A DNA stretch of 64,000 bases from Parvularculaceae bacterium (GCA_020446945.1 JAGRDS010000014.1:2769-66768), one strand, 5' to 3'. Positions 33,797 through 43,335 are shown, numbered from the stretch's first letter. A program made the numbers and translations. Notes: generated by a model from the letters alone, not told the origin.

Positions 33797-34345
33797 ATGA
33801 AAAAAGAGTTAGTACTCGCATTATGCGCCGCCGTCGCCCTGGCGGGGTGCAGTTCGACGAAAGAAAAGCGCGAGGCTAATCCGGGGCTTTGCCCGAATAT
33901 CGTCGTCCTGGACGATGCGGCGCGCCTCATAGATTTTGCGGGCGATGAAACGGTCGAGAATGTGGCCTGGTCGGCCGAAATCCGCGACGTGACGCTGAGT
34001 TGCCGGTATTACGGCGAACAGCCGATTGACGCTTCGGCGACTATCTCGATCGCCTTCGGCAAGGGGCCGAAAGCCGATTCGAATGCGCATGATTTCGCGT
34101 ACTGGGTCGCCGTGACGCGGGCGAACCGCGAAGTGATCGAGAAAAAGGAATTTCTCGTCCCGGTGAAATTCGGCGACGATTCGAAAGTCGAAAGCATCAA
34201 TCACGAGATTGAAAAGATCATTATCCCGCGCAAGGACGATACCATCTCCGGGTCGAACTTCGAGGTTGTCGTCGGCCTCGTCGTCACGCCGAAGCAGGCG
34301 ATATTCAATCGCGCCGGCAAGAGCCTCAAATTCCCAGACCTTTGA
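33797..34345 (+). CDS. Uncharacterised lipoprotein
   Basis: Start at the ATG at 33797 gives a clean lipoprotein signal MKKELVLALCAAVALAGCSS, with lipidation at Cys18. The 182-residue product then shows two cysteines (GLCPNIVVLDD, LSCRYY) and a beta-rich body with FAYWVAVTRANREVIEKKEF and a final VVGLVVTPKQAIFNR segment. The pattern resembles envelope lipoproteins common next to argS in Alphaproteobacteria, but I cannot name a function. Its stop and the argS start overlap by one base (TGATG), so the two are translationally coupled. Confidence 0.8.
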   Translation: MKKELVLALCAAVALAGCSSTKEKREANPGLCPNIVVLDDAARLIDFAGDETVENVAWSAEIRDVTLSCRYYGEQPIDASATISIAFGKGPKADSNAHDFAYWVAVTRANREVIEKKEFLVPVKFGDDSKVESINHEIEKIIIPRKDDTISGSNFEVVVGLVVTPKQAIFNRAGKSLKFPDL

Positions 34346-36108
34346 TGTTGTTGACGCAGGAGCTTTCAGCGCTTGTCGGCCGCTCGTTCGCCGATGAGGG
34401 GTTCGATCCGCAATTGGGCGCCGTTCGCGTTTCGGACCGCCCGGACCTTGCGCAGTTCCAGTGCAACGGCGCGCTGGTCGCGGCGAAGGCGGCGAAGATG
34501 AACCCGCGCGCCGTCGGCGAGAAAATCGCCGCGCGGCTGAAGGGTGAGAAAATTTTCGCCGATGTCAGTCTCGCCGGGCCGGGATTCATCAATTTGACGC
34601 TAAGCGACGACGCGCTTTCCGCGCGCATAGGCGCGCTTGGCGACGATCCGCGCCTTGGCGGATGGCGCGCGCAAAGCGGCGAAACCATCGTACTTGATTA
34701 TGGCGGGCCGAACGTCGCCAAGCCGCTTCATGTCGGGCATCTGCGTTCGGCGATAATCGGCGAATGTCTGAAACGGCTGTTTCGTTTCGTCGGCTTTGAA
34801 GTGTTCGGCGATATTCACCTTGGCGACTGGGGCCTGCCGATGGGCCAGTTGATCACCGAATTAAAGCGCGAACAGCCGGGTCTCGCCTATTTCGATCCGG
34901 CGAATGAGGGCCCGTTCGCCTCGGCCTCGCCGGTCAGCCTTGAAGATCTTGAGCGGCTCTATCCGAAGGCGTCGGCGGCCTGCAAGGAGGACGCCGCGCG
35001 CGCCGGCGAAGCGCGTCAGGCGACGGCGGAGCTTCAGGCCGGGCGCGCCGGCTATCGCGCGCTATGGAAACATTTTATCGACATATCGCGCGCCGGAATT
35101 GAACGCGAATACGCCGATCTCGGCGTCACGTTCGACTGGTGGAAGGGCGAGGCGGATGTCGATCCGCTCATTTCGCCGATGGTTGAAAAATTGCGCGCCG
35201 CCGGCGTCGCGGTCGAGGATGCGGGCGCGGTCGTCATTCATGTCGCGCGCGACGACGACAAAAAAGAATATCCCCCGCTCATTCTTTATAAATCGGACGG
35301 CGGGGTGATGTACGGCACGACCGATCTGGCGACGATCGTCGATCGGGTCGAGAGCGTTGATCCGGACCGGATGCTCTATGTCGTCGACGGGCGCCAGCGC
35401 GATCATTTCGAACAAGTGTTCCGCGCGTCGGATATCGCGGGCATCTATCCGAAAGAAAAGCTTGAGCATCTCTGGTTCGGCACCATGAACGGCAAGGATG
35501 GAAAACCGTTCAAGACGCGCGCCGGCGGCGTATTGAAGCTGCGCGACCTGATCGACATGGTGCAGGAGCGTGCGGCGGAACGATTGAAGGAAAGCGGCTT
35601 CGCCGACGGGTACGGAAAAAGCGAGGCCGATGATGTCGCGCGCCGGATCGGGCTGGCGGCGCTTAAATTCGCCGATCTGTCAAATCCGCGCACGAGCGAT
35701 TATGTTTTCGACCTCGACCGGTTTATCGCGTTTGAGGGAAAAACCGGGCCCTATCTTCATTATGCCAGCGTTCGCGTCAGGTCTGTCCTGAACAAGGCCG
35801 AAGCCGCCGGCGCGGGCGCGCCGGGGCCTGTCGCGCTCACCGAAAAGGAGGAGCGCGATCTGGCGCTCATCCTGCTGCAATTCGGCGATGCGGTGAAAGA
35901 CGCGGCTGAAAAGCGCTTGCCGCATTATCTTTGCGATCACGCCTTTACGCTCGCGCAGGCGTTTTCGAAATTTTATGCAGCGTGCCGCATCGTCGACGAG
36001 GCGGATGCGGCGCGGCGCGCGTCGCGTCTGTCGCTGGCGCGCGCCGCCGGGCGCCAGCTCGATCTTGTCCTCGACTTGCTCGGCATGCCGGCGCCTGAGA
36101 AAATGTGA
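34345..36108 (+). CDS. argS: Arginyl-tRNA synthetase
   Basis: A 587-residue class I synthetase. The N-terminal Add1 domain is at residues about 1-110. The HIGH signature is HVGH in NVAKPLHVGHLRSAIIG, and the KMSKS-equivalent region is FKTRAGGVLKLRDL. The C-terminal anticodon-binding domain ends LDLLGMPAPEKM. It charges tRNA-Arg. ATG at 34345 is preferred over the adjacent TTG. It ends one base from the stop of the convergent MFS gene. Confidence 0.97.
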   Translation: MLLTQELSALVGRSFADEGFDPQLGAVRVSDRPDLAQFQCNGALVAAKAAKMNPRAVGEKIAARLKGEKIFADVSLAGPGFINLTLSDDALSARIGALGDDPRLGGWRAQSGETIVLDYGGPNVAKPLHVGHLRSAIIGECLKRLFRFVGFEVFGDIHLGDWGLPMGQLITELKREQPGLAYFDPANEGPFASASPVSLEDLERLYPKASAACKEDAARAGEARQATAELQAGRAGYRALWKHFIDISRAGIEREYADLGVTFDWWKGEADVDPLISPMVEKLRAAGVAVEDAGAVVIHVARDDDKKEYPPLILYKSDGGVMYGTTDLATIVDRVESVDPDRMLYVVDGRQRDHFEQVFRASDIAGIYPKEKLEHLWFGTMNGKDGKPFKTRAGGVLKLRDLIDMVQERAAERLKESGFADGYGKSEADDVARRIGLAALKFADLSNPRTSDYVFDLDRFIAFEGKTGPYLHYASVRVRSVLNKAEAAGAGAPGPVALTEKEERDLALILLQFGDAVKDAAEKRLPHYLCDHAFTLAQAFSKFYAACRIVDEADAARRASRLSLARAAGRQLDLVLDLLGMPAPEKM

Positions 36109-37347
36109 TCAGGCCGGCGCCGGCTCCGCCTTCGGCGCATTTTCAGGAGCGGGCATTGTCGCCACGAATATCGCGGCGACGAGGGCGGCGCCGGCATAGA
36201 TCATGAAAATCGGCGAAAAGCTTTGCCAGTGATCGGCCGACCACCCGGCGATCGTCGGGCCGAGCATGGCGATCGTCGCGGCGAGGTTAACGCCGCCGAG
36301 TAGGGCAGGGCTGTTTTTCAAACCGAAATATTCGATGAGAAGCGCGGTTGTCGCGAACATCGCCATGCCGAAAGCGAAGCCGTCGAAAACGGCGAATATG
36401 ACGGCGAGCGCCGGCGAGCCGGCGAAGGCGAGCGCGCTCATTCCAACCGCGTTCGACGCCATGGCGCACACGAGCAGCGCCCGCGCGGACACGCGCTTGA
36501 CGAGCCAGCCGCCGAGCGCGCGCGCGCCGGCGTTCAGTCCCGAATAAAGACTGAACATCGCAACGGCGAATGAGGTCGCGAGCCCCGTTTTCTCCAGATG
36601 CGCCACCGACCAGGTGCTGACTGTCACGCCGCAGAAATACGCGACGGTCAGCGCGGCGCAGATAATGGCGAAGGCGGGCGTCGACATCGCTGCGCGCGCC
36701 GACCAGTCCGTATGCTGATTTTCCTCCGGCTCGGCCTCGGCGCCGGAATGCGTGCCGGGGCCATGCGCCAGTTTCGGATCGGCGAGCAATACGATAAGCG
36801 CAGCCGCCGCCGCGATCGCCAGGGCGCTCGCAAACCAGTAGGCCCGCCAGTCCGCGCCGCTTTGAAGCAGCGCATTCGCCATCAACGGGCCGGCGACGCC
36901 GCCGGCGCCGCCCGCCGCCAGATAAAGGCCGATCGCGATGTTGCGCCATTTAAGCGCGGTCGCGCGCGCGACGATGTAGGTGCCGGGCACGTTTGCAAGA
37001 AGCGCGAAACCAGCCCCGAGAAGCGATGTCGCTACGAGATACGCGCCGACCGATTGCGCGTATGAAAGCGTCAGGTGGCCGGCGACGACGACCGCGCCGC
37101 CGAGCGCGTAATGAAACCGCGCGCCCAGCCGTTCGAGCGAAGTCGCGGCGATGGGGCTGAAGACGCCTGTCAACAGCGCCAGCATCGTGAAGCCGAGCCC
37201 GGCCGTGCCCCAGCTCCATTGAAACTCGGCGATCATCGCCGGCAGGATGACGCCGAGCGAGGCGAAGGTCGTCGCCGTGATCAGGAAAAACGCGCCGGCG
37301 AGAACAATGCACAGCGCGCCGGCGCGCAGGGACAGGGAACGGGCCAT
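36109..37347 (-). CDS. MFS transporter, probable riboflavin importer (RfnT-like by context)
   Basis: A 412-residue, 12-helix major facilitator protein. The family loop between helices 2 and 3 carries LERLGARFHYALGG, and the central cytoplasmic loop is acidic and His-containing (PGTHSGAEAEPEENQHTD). Its ATG shares one base with the stop of the TonB-dependent receptor (TAATG), so it is translationally coupled and lies under the upstream FMN riboswitch. MFS proteins controlled by FMN riboswitches in Rhizobiales (RfnT) import riboflavin. That is the best guess here, based on context rather than on a diagnostic motif. Confidence 0.8.
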   Translation of the reverse strand: MARSLSLRAGALCIVLAGAFFLITATTFASLGVILPAMIAEFQWSWGTAGLGFTMLALLTGVFSPIAATSLERLGARFHYALGGAVVVAGHLTLSYAQSVGAYLVATSLLGAGFALLANVPGTYIVARATALKWRNIAIGLYLAAGGAGGVAGPLMANALLQSGADWRAYWFASALAIAAAAALIVLLADPKLAHGPGTHSGAEAEPEENQHTDWSARAAMSTPAFAIICAALTVAYFCGVTVSTWSVAHLEKTGLATSFAVAMFSLYSGLNAGARALGGWLVKRVSARALLVCAMASNAVGMSALAFAGSPALAVIFAVFDGFAFGMAMFATTALLIEYFGLKNSPALLGGVNLAATIAMLGPTIAGWSADHWQSFSPIFMIYAGAALVAAIFVATMPAPENAPKAEPAPA

Positions 37348-39767
37348 TAAAACGACGCCTTCAGCGTGAGCGAATATTCGCGGCCGCGCCCCGGAAGGAC
37401 GCCGATTTCCTCATAGACGTTCTGAACCGGAATGAAATGCCGCTTGTCGAAAGCATTGTCGATATTGGCGGTCAGCGAAAACCCGTTGAAAGCCCAGAAG
37501 AACGACGCCTTGCCGAGCGCATAGGCCGGGAACCGGACGGCGTTTGCAAGTTTGCCGCCCGTCTCGCCGACATAAACGGCGCCGGCCGTCGCGCCGAACG
37601 TACCGAAATCGGTGCGCGGCGAGGTGTAGGTGATAAATCCCGATGCAAGTATGTCGGGCGTCGTGCGGCGCTTGTAGCCGTTTTGCAGTTCGGGGATGCA
37701 GCTTGCGTTCAGCGCCGCGAACAGCCCGCCGTAACCGGAGGCCGGATCGATGCCGAAATAGGATGGCGGGAGTACGACGAATTCGCCATTGCCGGAACCG
37801 CACGCGCCCGGCGCCCCGATCTTCGCTTCCTGAAGCGTCACGGCCGAGGTGAGACTCCAATTGTCGGAGAGAAGATATTTAAGCTCCGCCTCAATCCCTT
37901 TCGAGGTTTCGGTGTCCAGGTTTCCGAACGGGTCGCTGCGCTGGCGTTCCTGCCGGTAAAACGCGAGCGAGCCGAACAGATCGCCGCTCCCGGCCTTGAG
38001 GCCGAATTCGACCATTTCAGAATCGGCGATGAAATTGTTCTGAAAGATGCGGTCGACTTCCACGCCGCCGCCGTCATTCGTTTCGAGCGTGTTGTTCTGC
38101 GCGTAGGTCGCATAGGCGAGGATATCGCCGCCGAGAACATATCGCAGCGACGCCTCATAGCTCGCCGTGAAATCATCGCCCTTGAGGCGGACAAAGCCGA
38201 GAGCGGGGTTGAAGATCGTCGAGCCGGTGTTGATCGAGGACGCCGTGAAACGATCAAGGCGAATGCTGGCGAGAATCGACAGGCGATCGGTCAGCGCCGC
38301 GTCGGAAACGAAATAAAACGCGAGATCGTTCGTCGTCGAATCAAGATCGGTATCCCATCCGATCCCGTTCGGTTCGATGGAAAAGGGATCGTCGAATACG
38401 TCGCCGCCCGTCGGCCCGACGGTCAGATCGCGCCGGTCGACGGCGAGATAACCGGAAAGGAACGTCTGGCGCGTATGGTTGTCGTAGCGCCGCCACGAAA
38501 CGCCGGCGATATTGCTCATTTCCACGCCGGCGAGGCGTAGCGGAAATTCGTAGCTCGCGCGCAGCTCCACAACATCGGAGATATATTGCGCGGCGAAACC
38601 GTAACTCTGACTGAGATCGCCGTTCATGCTGTCGAAAAACGCCTGAAGCCGAATGGCCTGATCGGGTCCGGCGTCGATTGAAAAATCGGCATAGGCCGTA
38701 CCCGTCCTGGAATCGGCGATATCCTGATCGGCGATAAACACCGTGCGCGGATCAAGCGTCGAGACGCCGATATTCCGATCGAGCGTGAAGGCGGGGCCGG
38801 GGAAGACGCCGAAGTCGACGAACTGGCGAATATTCGAAGCGCCGAAAAACGCGCCCACAGCGGCGTCGACTTCATCGGGCGTCAGCTTGCCGTTCGAATC
38901 GAGGTCGCGAAGGTCGGTGTCGGCGCCGGTTATATAGGTTGCGTTGTCGATCAGGTCCTGGGTAACGCGGTTCCAGCCGATCGTCTGCTTGTACCCGCTC
39001 GATGAGAAATAGGCGCCGCCGATTTCCAGCGAATAGCGGCCCGAATCGGCGAGCGTGAAAGCAGCCTGCGCGAGAACGCGCTCCGGTTCTACGCCGCGGT
39101 AGAAGCTTTTCGAATTCTCATACTCGCCATAGGCGTAAACGCCGGCGTCCTTCGAACCGATTGCGAACGCGGCGCCGGCGGCGGCGTTTACGACATGCTT
39201 CTGGTAAGACCCGATTTCGCCGCCGATTTCGAACATGCGCCCGCGTTCGCCGATCTTTCGTTGCGTCAACGCGGTCAATGGCGTCACGTTCACGAATCCG
39301 CCGACGCGCCCGGCGCCGTATATCGCCGGCGTCGGGCCGCGCACGACCTCTATGCGCTCGCTGGCGCCGATGGGCGTTGGAAACGTGCCGGGATTTTCAA
39401 CCCGCTTGAAGCCGCGAAAATAGCTGTCGGCGCGATTGCCGCGAATGGTGACGCTTCCCGGAACGCCGAAAAAGCTGCCCGTAAAGGTTCCTGGCGCGAC
39501 GGCGGCGAGATCGTCGACCGTTTCGATGTTGAAGCGTTCGATCGTCTCGTCGCTGATGGCGGAGATCGAACGCGGCAGGTCGGCGTAGGAAAGGTCGAGA
39601 CCGTAAACCGACCGGCTGCCGCCAAGTTCCAACAGTTCGAGCGGGTCGGCGACGACGACGATTTCGTCTATCGGCTCCTCTGATCGCGCCAATGCGTCTG
39701 GTTGCGCAAAAGCGGCGCAGGGCGCTGAAACGATCGCCGCGACGATAAACTTTGAAACGCTCGACAT
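37347..39767 (-). CDS. TonB-dependent outer-membrane receptor under an FMN riboswitch, with EF-hand loop
   Basis: Start placed at 39767, giving the signal peptide MSSVSKFIVAAIVSAPCAAF; the frame is open further up but would run into the riboswitch. The 806-residue protein has a TonB-box-like EEPIDEIVVVADP (residues 31-42) and a plug domain with GVPGSVTIRGNRADSYFRGF and ERIEVVRGPTPAIYGAGRVGG (about 100-160). The 22-strand barrel ends in a terminal aromatic strand (YSLTLKASF). Residues 288-299 (DLDSNGKLTPDE) fit the EF-hand calcium loop at every key position. It probably imports a flavin across the outer membrane, with the coupled MFS protein completing the route. The ligand is inferred only from the riboswitch. 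Confidence 0.9.
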   Translation of the reverse strand: MSSVSKFIVAAIVSAPCAAFAQPDALARSEEPIDEIVVVADPLELLELGGSRSVYGLDLSYADLPRSISAISDETIERFNIETVDDLAAVAPGTFTGSFFGVPGSVTIRGNRADSYFRGFKRVENPGTFPTPIGASERIEVVRGPTPAIYGAGRVGGFVNVTPLTALTQRKIGERGRMFEIGGEIGSYQKHVVNAAAGAAFAIGSKDAGVYAYGEYENSKSFYRGVEPERVLAQAAFTLADSGRYSLEIGGAYFSSSGYKQTIGWNRVTQDLIDNATYITGADTDLRDLDSNGKLTPDEVDAAVGAFFGASNIRQFVDFGVFPGPAFTLDRNIGVSTLDPRTVFIADQDIADSRTGTAYADFSIDAGPDQAIRLQAFFDSMNGDLSQSYGFAAQYISDVVELRASYEFPLRLAGVEMSNIAGVSWRRYDNHTRQTFLSGYLAVDRRDLTVGPTGGDVFDDPFSIEPNGIGWDTDLDSTTNDLAFYFVSDAALTDRLSILASIRLDRFTASSINTGSTIFNPALGFVRLKGDDFTASYEASLRYVLGGDILAYATYAQNNTLETNDGGGVEVDRIFQNNFIADSEMVEFGLKAGSGDLFGSLAFYRQERQRSDPFGNLDTETSKGIEAELKYLLSDNWSLTSAVTLQEAKIGAPGACGSGNGEFVVLPPSYFGIDPASGYGGLFAALNASCIPELQNGYKRRTTPDILASGFITYTSPRTDFGTFGATAGAVYVGETGGKLANAVRFPAYALGKASFFWAFNGFSLTANIDNAFDKRHFIPVQNVYEEIGVLPGRGREYSLTLKASF

Positions 39768-39799
39768 AAAAATCCCGACTTTGCGAGCGGAAAGTCGGG
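39768..39799 (-). terminator. Riboswitch expression platform: terminator hairpin touching the receptor start codon
   Basis: Minus strand: CCCGACTTT, an 8-base loop, AAAGTCGGG, then ATTTTT, immediately followed by the ATG. The 9-pair stem plus T-run is a canonical intrinsic terminator. Because it occupies the space where a ribosome-binding site should be, it could also block translation. It is positioned as the off-state structure of the FMN riboswitch. Confidence 0.82.
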
Positions 39800-39889
39800 G
39801 CGAACACAAACATCCCGCACCTGCGGCGAACCGGGCTGCGCGCATAGATCGCAGTCCCGCGTTCGCGCGCAAAGGCGCAACGCCTGTGT

Positions 39890-40041
39890 GATCTTCTCTC
39901 ATCCGGACTGTGACCGTCGGCTCTGGACTCTCACCAGATCCTGCTCTGCGCGAGGAATTTCCGCCTCTCGCTCGGCTCGCGGGCTTATCGGCTTTCGACC
40001 GAAACACCGCCGGTGGGGACTTTCACCCCGCCCCGAAGATC
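39890..40041 (-). ncRNA. FMN riboswitch (RFN element)
   Basis: Read on the minus strand, the conserved blocks follow in order: GGGGTGAAAGTCCCCACCGG then CGGT, AAGCCCGCGAGC, CTGGTGAGAGTCCAGAGCCG, and ACGGTCACAGTCCGGATGAG. Helix P1 is closed by GATCTTC (40041-40035) with GAAGATC (39896-39890). This is a near-consensus FMN aptamer. It controls the TonB-dependent receptor and, through coupling, the MFS transporter: FMN binding should shut both off. A clear promoter lies upstream and a terminator hairpin downstream. Confidence 0.97.
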
Positions 40042-40069
40042 CTGTCTCGCGGATTGAACCGCAGTTGGG

Positions 40070-40098
40070 TATATAGCCGCGGTTTCCGATAGGATCAA
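40070..40098 (-). promoter_or_regulatory. Sigma-70 promoter of the FMN-riboswitch operon
   Basis: Minus strand: TTGATC (40098-40093), a 17-base spacer, TATATA (40075-40070). The start of transcription would be around 40063, some 20 bases before the aptamer. It also lies only 38 bases from the divergent agmatine deiminase start. Confidence 0.75.
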
Positions 40099-40135: not shown

Positions 40136-41287
40136 ATGAAAACGCCTCATCGCCAACCGGCCGAATGGATGAATCACGAAGCCGTATGGATCGGCTGGCC
40201 GTCAGCGGCCGATCTTTGGGAGGAAAACCTTGAGCCCGCGCAGGCCGAGGTCGCCGAATTGATCGGCGCCATCTGCTTTCCCGATCCCGGCGACGAAGCA
40301 GGCGGGAAGGTCAGGGGCGAGCGGGTCGAGCTTCTGGTGCGCGGGCCGGACGCGCGCATTGCAGCCGAAGCGATGCGGCTTGCGCTGCCCGATCCCGCTG
40401 CGGTTCGCCTGCACGAAGCCCCGCTCGGCGACATCTGGCTGCGCGACACCGGCCCGATTTTTGTCGATGACGGCGCGACAGGCGTGAATGCGAGCGCCTT
40501 TCGGTTTAACGGATGGGGCGGGAAATATCTTCTCGCCAGCGACGATGCGATCGCCGGCCTCGTCGCGGAAAAGGCGGGTGCGCGCCTTCACCGATTTGAT
40601 GCGCTGGTCGCAGAAGGCGGCGCGATAGAAGTAGACGGCGAAGGCGCGTGCATAACGACGCGCCAGTGCCTTCTCAACAGGAACCGCAATCCGGCCATGT
40701 CCGAAAGAGCCGTGGAGGGCGTATTGAATGAGGCGCTGGGGATCGAAAAGGTCATCTGGCTGGACGAGGGCATGATCGGCGATCACACAGACGGCCATGT
40801 CGACAATCTTGCGCGGTTCATCGCGCCCGGCAAAGTCGCGTGCATGAAAGCGAATGGCGCGGACGATCCGAATGCGGCGGTTTTTTCAGCGATAAGGAAA
40901 ACGCTCGAAAGCGCGACAGACGCGCGCGGCCGGCCGCTGGAAGTGATCGAACTGCCGTCGCCGGGGCTTGCAAGGCTAAATGGCGATATCGTTCCCGCAA
41001 GCCATATGAATTTCTATATCGCAAACCATTCGCTCATTATGCCGTCCTATGGCGGCATTACGAATGAAGACGAGTCCGCGCTTGAATGTCTAGAAATTCT
41101 CGAACGCCATGTCGAGCGCGCGCATTTTTACGCAATCGACTCGTCTCACCTGCTTTCGGGCGGCGGTTCGTTTCATTGCATCAGCCAGCAGCAGCCTGCG
41201 GCGGCGTCAATGGCCGGCGCTGTCGCCCCAGACCGTGCGAACGCGCGCATCGCGCCGGCAAGCGGTTCGGTAATATCGGTAACGTAG
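40136..41287 (+). CDS. aguA: Agmatine deiminase with a C-terminal extension overlapping msrA
   Basis: A 383-residue guanidino-group-modifying enzyme. It starts with the family block RQPAEWMNHEAVWIGWPS, has DIWLRDTGPIFV near residue 100 and DHTDGHVDNLARF near 215-227, and the nucleophile Cys348 is in GGGSFHCISQQQP. It hydrolyses agmatine to N-carbamoylputrescine and ammonia, an arginine-to-putrescine route. Family members usually end soon after QQQP. Here about 29 further residues follow, encoded antisense to the end of msrA (81-base tail-to-tail overlap). An N-carbamoylputrescine amidase is not present in this window. Confidence 0.95.
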   Translation: MKTPHRQPAEWMNHEAVWIGWPSAADLWEENLEPAQAEVAELIGAICFPDPGDEAGGKVRGERVELLVRGPDARIAAEAMRLALPDPAAVRLHEAPLGDIWLRDTGPIFVDDGATGVNASAFRFNGWGGKYLLASDDAIAGLVAEKAGARLHRFDALVAEGGAIEVDGEGACITTRQCLLNRNRNPAMSERAVEGVLNEALGIEKVIWLDEGMIGDHTDGHVDNLARFIAPGKVACMKANGADDPNAAVFSAIRKTLESATDARGRPLEVIELPSPGLARLNGDIVPASHMNFYIANHSLIMPSYGGITNEDESALECLEILERHVERAHFYAIDSSHLLSGGGSFHCISQQQPAAASMAGAVAPDRANARIAPASGSVISVT

Positions 41288-42032: not shown

Positions 42033-42611
42033 GTGCGTGGCTTGATTTCCATAATCGCGGCGGCCTGTGCGCTGTGCGCGCCGGCCAAGGCGGCGACGAC
42101 CGTTTACGCGTCGGGCGTTTATCAGACGTCCGGTCTGGTTTTCGGTTCGGGCAACGCGATCGGCGCAACCGATTCGTCCTCTGCAACCCTGTTTCCCTTT
42201 TTCGGCGTGCCGAGTTCGATAACGTTGATCATGTCGCAGGCGATCACCGGCGCTTCCGCGTCATTCGTCGGACAGCGATTGACAGCCGGCTCGAATGTCG
42301 AGGTCGCGATCGGCGAAGTCGTCGGCGGCACGACGATTTTCTCCACGTTCACCTCCCTGCCGGGCGGGGCCGGGCCGACGGCCTTCGCCGTCAATCTCGG
42401 TGCGGCCTGTTCGGCGATATCCGCGACCGGCTGCTCGCTGCTTCGCATTCGCGTTTCAGGCGGGTTCGGGAGCGGGTTTAATCTCGACGGCGTTTCAGGC
42501 GTCGCTTCCGCGCCGGAACCCTCGATCTGGGGGCTGATGATTCTCGGTTTCGGCGTCACGACATGGCGGCTCAGGAACGCACGCAGCGCCGTTGCGAAAA
42601 CCCTCGCCTAG
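42033..42611 (+). CDS. PEP-CTERM sorted exported protein (copy 1)
   Basis: A 192-residue protein with a GTG start behind GGGGGCGCGAG. The signal peptide (MRGLISIIAAACALCAPAKA) is cut near AKA|ATT. A Ser/Gly/Thr-rich beta-like body follows, then the sorting signal APEPSIWGLMILGFG, a short helix and RLRNAR. The PEP motif, helix and Arg cluster are what the exosortase EpsH / XrtA system recognises for surface processing. The body shares VEVAIGEVVGG, two cysteines around SATGCSLLRIR and LDGVSGVASAPEP with its downstream neighbour, so the two are paralogues. No exosortase is in the window. Function unknown. Confidence 0.85.
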   Translation: MRGLISIIAAACALCAPAKAATTVYASGVYQTSGLVFGSGNAIGATDSSSATLFPFFGVPSSITLIMSQAITGASASFVGQRLTAGSNVEVAIGEVVGGTTIFSTFTSLPGGAGPTAFAVNLGAACSAISATGCSLLRIRVSGGFGSGFNLDGVSGVASAPEPSIWGLMILGFGVTTWRLRNARSAVAKTLA

Positions 42612-42629
42612 CCGGCGCGCTCGATCGAA

Positions 42630-42659
42630 TTGTTAAGAATTCCGCAAGCTTCCTTTAAA
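42630..42659 (+). promoter_or_regulatory. Candidate promoter for the second PEP-CTERM gene
   Basis: TTGTTA (42630-42635), an 18-base spacer, TTTAAA (42654-42659), 68 bases before the start codon. It suggests that the two paralogues can be transcribed separately. Confidence 0.45.
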
Positions 42660-42726
42660 AGAACCTAACTAGTCTCCGGCCCGCTGAATGGGGGGGCGTG
42701 GCTTAGTCACGTCCAAGGAGAATGCC

Positions 42727-43335
42727 ATGACAATGGCGACCCGCATAATCATCGTCGCCCTGGCGGCGATGCTCGCTGCGTTCCCGGCGCGCGCAGCGAC
42801 ATCTGTTTACGCTGCGTCGGTTTACAGTCAGAGCGGCGTTACATCCGCATCGAACGCGCTGTTCGGCGCGGACGGCGCCGGCGCCCTGATCGCGTCCGGC
42901 GGCGAGCTTGTTCTGCAATACGCAAATCCGCTGACCGGACAGTCGATCGCGGCGAACCTTCTTCCGCTCGCCGGATCGCCCGCCTTCAACGTGCTCGCCG
43001 TTTCGGTCGGCGAGGTTATCGGCGGCGTTGCTAATTTCTCCGGCGAATTCGTCCTTGTGGATATGGGCGCCGGCGGCGTTTTGAACGCCGATATGTCAGC
43101 GCTTTGTTCGTCCGTGTCCGGATCGGGTTGTTCGTTGCTGCGTTTCCGGAACGCGGCCTCGTTCAACGCGCCGGGCGCATTGCTCGACGGCGTCAGCGGC
43201 GTATCGAATGCGCCGGAACCCGCCGCGTGGGCGTTGTTGCTGCTCGGTTTCGCAGGTGTCGGCTGGCGATTGAAATCGCTTCGCCGCGCCGATGATCGGC
43301 GCACGCGCAATATCGCCGGGCGCGCATTCGCCTGA
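42727..43335 (+). CDS. PEP-CTERM sorted exported protein (copy 2)
   Basis: Start at the ATG at 42727, seven bases after AAGGAG. The 202-residue product has a signal peptide (TMATRIIIVALAAMLAAFPA) cut near ARA|ATS. Its body shares with copy 1 the opening TSVYAASVYSQSGV, AVSVGEVIGG, the Cys pair in SSVSGSGCSLLRFR, and LDGVSGVSNAPEP. The sorting signal is APEPAAWALLLLGFAGVGWR, followed by a basic tail about 20 residues longer than usual. Identity between the copies is moderate, so the duplication is old. Probably anchored or released at the cell surface; function unknown. Confidence 0.87.
   Translation: MTMATRIIIVALAAMLAAFPARAATSVYAASVYSQSGVTSASNALFGADGAGALIASGGELVLQYANPLTGQSIAANLLPLAGSPAFNVLAVSVGEVIGGVANFSGEFVLVDMGAGGVLNADMSALCSSVSGSGCSLLRFRNAASFNAPGALLDGVSGVSNAPEPAAWALLLLGFAGVGWRLKSLRRADDRRTRNIAGRAFA

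Follow-up and report, generated by a model that had tools for sequence, protein, structure and literature searches.

A candidate FMN-repressed flavin import operon at a riboflavin biosynthesis locus in Parvularculaceae

An FMN riboswitch leader, a TonB-dependent receptor and an MFS carrier

The window, by which we mean the whole 64,000-nucleotide stretch of DNA analysed here (Parvularculaceae bacterium, GCA_020446945.1, JAGRDS010000014.1:2769-66768), carries on its minus strand, between positions 36109 and 40098, a promoter, a riboswitch leader and two overlapping genes. The sigma-70-like promoter (40070..40098) is read directly from the sequence as TTGATC (40098-40093), a 17-nt spacer and TATATA (40075-40070), as an earlier, sequence-only reading of this DNA had proposed. 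It is conserved upstream of the aptamer in relatives of the same genus; a strict consensus scan placed it below threshold and returned no promoter. The FMN riboswitch aptamer, or RFN element (39887..40044, minus strand), matches the covariance model RF00050 over its full length (model positions 1-138 of 138; E 4e-23) and belongs to that family by its score of 104.1 bits, over the gathering cut-off of 66.2, which bears out the near-consensus aptamer first noticed. A genome-wide search found it to be the only FMN riboswitch of the genome. Judged by its sequence, the aptamer would bind FMN and control expression of the genes behind it.

Between the aptamer and the first gene lies an expression-platform hairpin (39774..39799, minus strand), a nine-pair stem at 39799-39774 followed by ATTTTTATG. 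It had been described as a terminator hairpin; the stem and the T-run stand, and the assignment needs to be widened. Since the T-run reaches into the ATG of the receptor gene, and the only GGGA/GGGG near the receptor start lies within the 3' arm of the hairpin, the stem could also hide the ribosome site. The hairpin may thus be an intrinsic terminator, a ribosome-site occluder, or both. In one relative (L091) the stem is kept and the T-run is absent; an apparent in-frame stop in the MFS gene of that locus proved to be its normal end.

The first gene encodes a TonB-dependent receptor of 806 residues (37347..39767, minus strand) and the second an MFS carrier of 412 residues (36109..37347, minus strand; PF07690). 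The two overlap by one base, the receptor stop and the MFS start forming TAATG at 37347, so that the originally proposed gene order and overlap hold. On the plus strand the pair is flanked by genes that we take, on our own reading of the sequence, to be aguA-like (agmatine deiminase; 40136..41287), anchoring the upstream side, and argS-like (34342..36108), anchoring the downstream side; both are syntenic in genomes with the rib operon and in genomes with the receptor. Elsewhere in the window, two adjoining small secreted proteins (42033-43335) have C-termini that resemble PEP-CTERM sorting signals.

The receptor is assigned to the TonB-dependent class by a Plug domain over its cut-off (PF07715), by a signal-peptide-like start and a TonB-box-like DEIVV recognised by eye, and by the barrel of its model. 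The structures that match this AlphaFold2 model (pLDDT 68) are TonB-dependent transporters, led by siderophore receptors and including PqqU, the receptor for PQQ; the fold singles out no ligand. By sequence and predicted fold the protein appears nearest to siderophore receptors, yet it scores below their family cut-off (TIGR01783, 110.9 bits against a curated 223.5) and far below that of the cobalamin receptor BtuB (TIGR01779, 27.5 against 599.7); both assignments were rejected. An EF-hand-like loop, D-x-D-x-N-G-x-L-x-x-x-E, occupies residues 289-300 (receptor P0001), and 26 of 27 homologues share it. The loop is reminiscent of BtuB, whose ligand site is ordered by calcium.

The model of the MFS carrier is helical (pLDDT 85), and its nearest solved relative is the monocarboxylate-type carrier SfMCT. 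The identity to SfMCT is only 20-22%, and the L-lactate equivalog built on that protein is rejected by score (NF049980, 89 bits against an NCBIfam cut-off of 320), so that the carrier resembles the broad monocarboxylate-type group, as judged by sequence and model, while falling outside this equivalog. The comparison with RfnT drawn in the sequence-only reading does not hold. RfnT-like CalT proteins are also MFS members and were once called riboflavin carriers, but they have been shown to import copper and have no riboswitch (PMC6362234), and their MxxxM and HxxxM motifs are both absent here.

Exchange of riboflavin synthesis for a receptor and a carrier

In an order-wide search, 44 of 50 genomes from the window's own family, Parvularculaceae, each gave one FMN riboswitch. 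The genes behind it are in most cases ribD-ribE-ribBA-ribH and then a folE-like gene. Two genera, g1 and g2, share the surroundings: the aguA-like gene precedes the locus, and argS, a lipoprotein gene and ispH come after it. The receptor and MFS genes stand between aguA and argS in place of the rib genes in the window genome and in relatives from both genera. The locus reads aguA-RFN-X-argS, where X is ribD-ribE-ribBA-ribH-folE in relatives, three of them congeneric with the window genome, and receptor-MFS in genomes lacking RibH. Both versions have the leader in common, the stem, T-run and ATG arrangement also preceding ribD in relatives. Both states occur within the window's own genus, where RibH was found in three genomes and not in six, three of the six being at most 84% complete. 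At this chromosomal position the receptor-MFS operon stands in for the riboflavin biosynthesis operon, a swap seen in two genera.

Lumazine synthase (RibH), DHBP synthase (RibB) and riboflavin synthase (RibE) were not detected in the window genome, which is 99.5% complete, with searches that were each positive in most or all control genomes; a flavokinase was detected. Since the synthesis enzymes are absent and flavokinase is kept, the cell is predicted to be a riboflavin auxotroph, in need of imported flavin and able to use it. Inability to make riboflavin together with the ability to use it supports the assignment of a riboflavin importer, and does not by itself define one.

Across the family, with the receptor counted as present at E below 1e-120, receptor (13 of 62 genomes) and RibH (40 of 62) never occur together; the Fisher value is 6e-8, or 5e-7 among genomes at least 90% complete, and like the one given below it ignores shared ancestry. 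RibH is likewise absent from 24 of the 29 named genomes that carry any homologue of the receptor. Erythrobacter-type relatives are an independent group behaving alike: RibH is present in 70 of 80 and lacking in four of the five that carry a receptor homologue (Fisher 6e-4, shared ancestry again ignored). In some RibH-positive genomes the receptor homologue sits beside catabolic genes (Novosphingobium, NORP63, NORP118, a Gammaproteobacterium and G337). One further genome, represented by loci L092 and L130, has an RFN-receptor-MFS operon, apparently at a different locus, and a full rib operon elsewhere.

The receptor family and a second receptor behind an FMN riboswitch

A collection-wide scan returned 30 loci with a homologue, spread over Parvularculaceae, sphingomonads, Erythrobacter and some Gammaproteobacteria. 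When 27 receptors are placed in a tree with L132 as root, the window receptor belongs to a clade of 11 (support 100/98) that is sister to all others. The sequence-only reading had suggested looking for RFN elements upstream of receptor homologues. One is present at all 12 testable loci of this clade, counting members and two further fragments with a long enough contig, and an MFS gene lies directly downstream of the receptor at 11 of 11 clade loci with enough contig. More distant homologues, at 39-50% identity, have no riboswitch; several of them adjoin an MFS gene of the same kind, and most are found in RibH-less genomes.

Other RFN-less homologues have ribokinase/LacI genes and genes of aromatic catabolism as neighbours, or F420 genes. 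Near the distant homologues lie a true ribokinase accompanied by a LacI regulator, as well as genes for an amidohydrolase, a flavin reductase and Rieske oxygenases. At L093, L097, L109 and L111 the homologue lies beside the ribokinase and LacI regulator, with amidohydrolase, glyoxalase-like and Rieske genes added at L097, contexts in which flavin or nucleoside-like catabolism is possible. At L107 (642-6540) it adjoins genes for the deazaflavin F420: a cofE-npdG fusion, cofD, cofC and an F420-type oxidoreductase. Because known riboflavin catabolism includes ribose release and pyrimidine-ring hydrolysis (PMC12746152), these contexts would fit flavin-like ligands, which we treat as a lead for the distant homologues; for the operon itself, which holds no catabolic genes, riboflavin catabolism was rejected as the function. 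Among the homologue neighbours scanned there were no siderophore or cobalamin genes, and the pattern named in advance as telling against a flavin receptor, RFN-less homologues beside such genes, was thus not seen.

A second case comes from another family of the order. In genome G014 (L042, 5001-7550), an FMN riboswitch scoring 97.3 bits precedes a different TonB-dependent receptor, which has only 23% identity to the window receptor over 166 residues, and its leader has the same stem-T-run-ATG platform. A search of 1.87 Mb of G014, about 72% of that genome, returned the controls argS and folE and none of ribD, ribE, ribBA and ribH. At another site (L051, 5242-6222, in G206), an FMN riboswitch stands before an EamA-type carrier, possibly RibN-like.

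These distributions bear on two other ways of accounting for the operon. After loss of the rib operon, an unrelated uptake operon, for a siderophore or an aromatic compound, might have landed behind the orphaned FMN riboswitch, the substrate then not being a flavin. That the nearest solved relatives of the receptor are siderophore receptors, and that group-B homologues lie near aromatic-catabolism genes, would suit such an origin. However, the riboswitch is kept in every testable member of the clade, in two genera and, at L092, apparently at a different locus; riboswitch-less homologues also track RibH loss; the FMN riboswitch of G014 is followed by an unrelated receptor; and an auxotroph must import flavin somehow. 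This explanation is weakened by the repeated retention and the co-occurrence, and we regard it as quite improbable.

Alternatively, the MFS carrier might by itself import riboflavin that reaches the periplasm through other channels, the receptor bringing in a companion nutrient that is required when flavin runs short, for example iron. The carrier is of monocarboxylate type by sequence and fold, and a homologue of that group, yeast Mch5p, imports riboflavin according to a citation in PMC5404878; the likeness is one of group membership. Diffusion of riboflavin through porins in E. coli is likewise cited, in PMC12319065, as shown. Against this, it is the receptor that comes first in the operon and forms its conserved element, in G014 the switch precedes a different receptor, and the receptor clade tracks RibH loss in some genomes even where the MFS gene is missing. 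A carrier acting alone therefore seems to us very improbable.

Proposed import cycle and comparison with known systems

Taken together, we consider it highly probable that an FMN-repressed flavin import operon has replaced the riboflavin biosynthesis operon at this locus. The two-membrane flavin uptake proposed in the sequence-only reading gains support from the riboswitch at 12 of 12 loci, the MFS gene at 11 of 11, the lost synthesis, the replaced rib locus and the exclusion of RibH, from which we infer flavin transport. Counting against it are the likeness of the receptor to siderophore receptors, the riboswitch-less homologues at 39-50% identity, some of them next to catabolic genes where RibH is present, and the full rib operon kept in the L092 genome. 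When FMN is scarce, the riboswitch would permit expression of both genes. The receptor, presumably energised by TonB, would bind riboflavin (or FMN or FAD) at the cell surface and carry it to the periplasm, and the MFS protein would take riboflavin across the inner membrane. Flavokinase/FAD synthase would then make FMN, which would close the riboswitch.

The ligand at the surface could differ without affecting the rest of this cycle. FAD exceeds the usual porin limit, and it is possible, though less likely than not, that the true ligand of the receptor is not riboflavin but FMN, FAD or a molecule resembling flavins (roseoflavin, lumichrome, a deazaflavin), which enzymes in the periplasm would trim before the MFS step. 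The homologue beside cofE-npdG, cofD and cofC and those beside ribokinase and a LacI regulator point in this direction; the operon, however, has no periplasmic phosphatase, and auxotrophy demands that some usable flavin be supplied. More broadly, and tentatively, the whole receptor clade, with or without the riboswitch, may consist of energised receptors for flavins and flavin-like tricyclic cofactors, serving scavenging by auxotrophs, flavin breakdown (ribokinase and ring-opening genes) and possibly deazaflavins (F420 genes), with an unrelated receptor recruited behind an FMN riboswitch a second time.

To our knowledge, descriptions of riboflavin import in bacteria stop at the inner membrane and leave the outer step to porins. 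TonB-type vitamin receptors are known for cobalamin and thiamine. In the open-access literature searched, with subscription journals largely outside it, we found no earlier report of an FMN riboswitch or riboflavin paired with a TonB-dependent receptor. The locus is a concrete candidate for an energised outer-membrane flavin receptor: it brings its own sensor and a carrier to work with, and its predicted natural auxotrophs include Marinicaulis flavus SY-3-19, which is in culture. In addition, an operon for synthesis has here given way to one for probable import while riboswitch and chromosomal position stayed the same, and dependence of aquatic bacteria on dissolved flavin is implied.

Among known systems, we know of no riboswitch or MFS partner for PqqU (YncD), a TonB-dependent receptor for another organic redox cofactor, PQQ. 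Its fold is similar to that of the window receptor (PDB 9c4o), at 14% identity in the fold match. BtuB is, like our candidate, a TonB-dependent vitamin receptor under a riboswitch, but its ligand is cobalamin, its inner partner is an ABC transporter, and its sequence similarity to the window receptor is weak only. RibN, ImpX, RibXY, RibZ, RibU and RibM share with the present operon an importer placed behind an FMN riboswitch, whereas all of them are inner-membrane proteins of other families (PMC4418817); neither this main survey of FMN-riboswitch transporters nor a riboswitch regulon survey (PMC3766115) names an outer-membrane component. The closest analogue is OMthi of Bacteroides thetaiotaomicron (PMC5613172), an outer-membrane thiamine transporter under a TPP riboswitch with the inner-membrane PnuT as its partner. 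There, too, a TonB-dependent receptor under the control of a vitamin riboswitch is matched by a carrier in the inner membrane; OMthi differs in serving thiamine, in having receptor and carrier in separate operons, in a host that keeps biosynthesis, and in belonging to another phylum and another receptor family.
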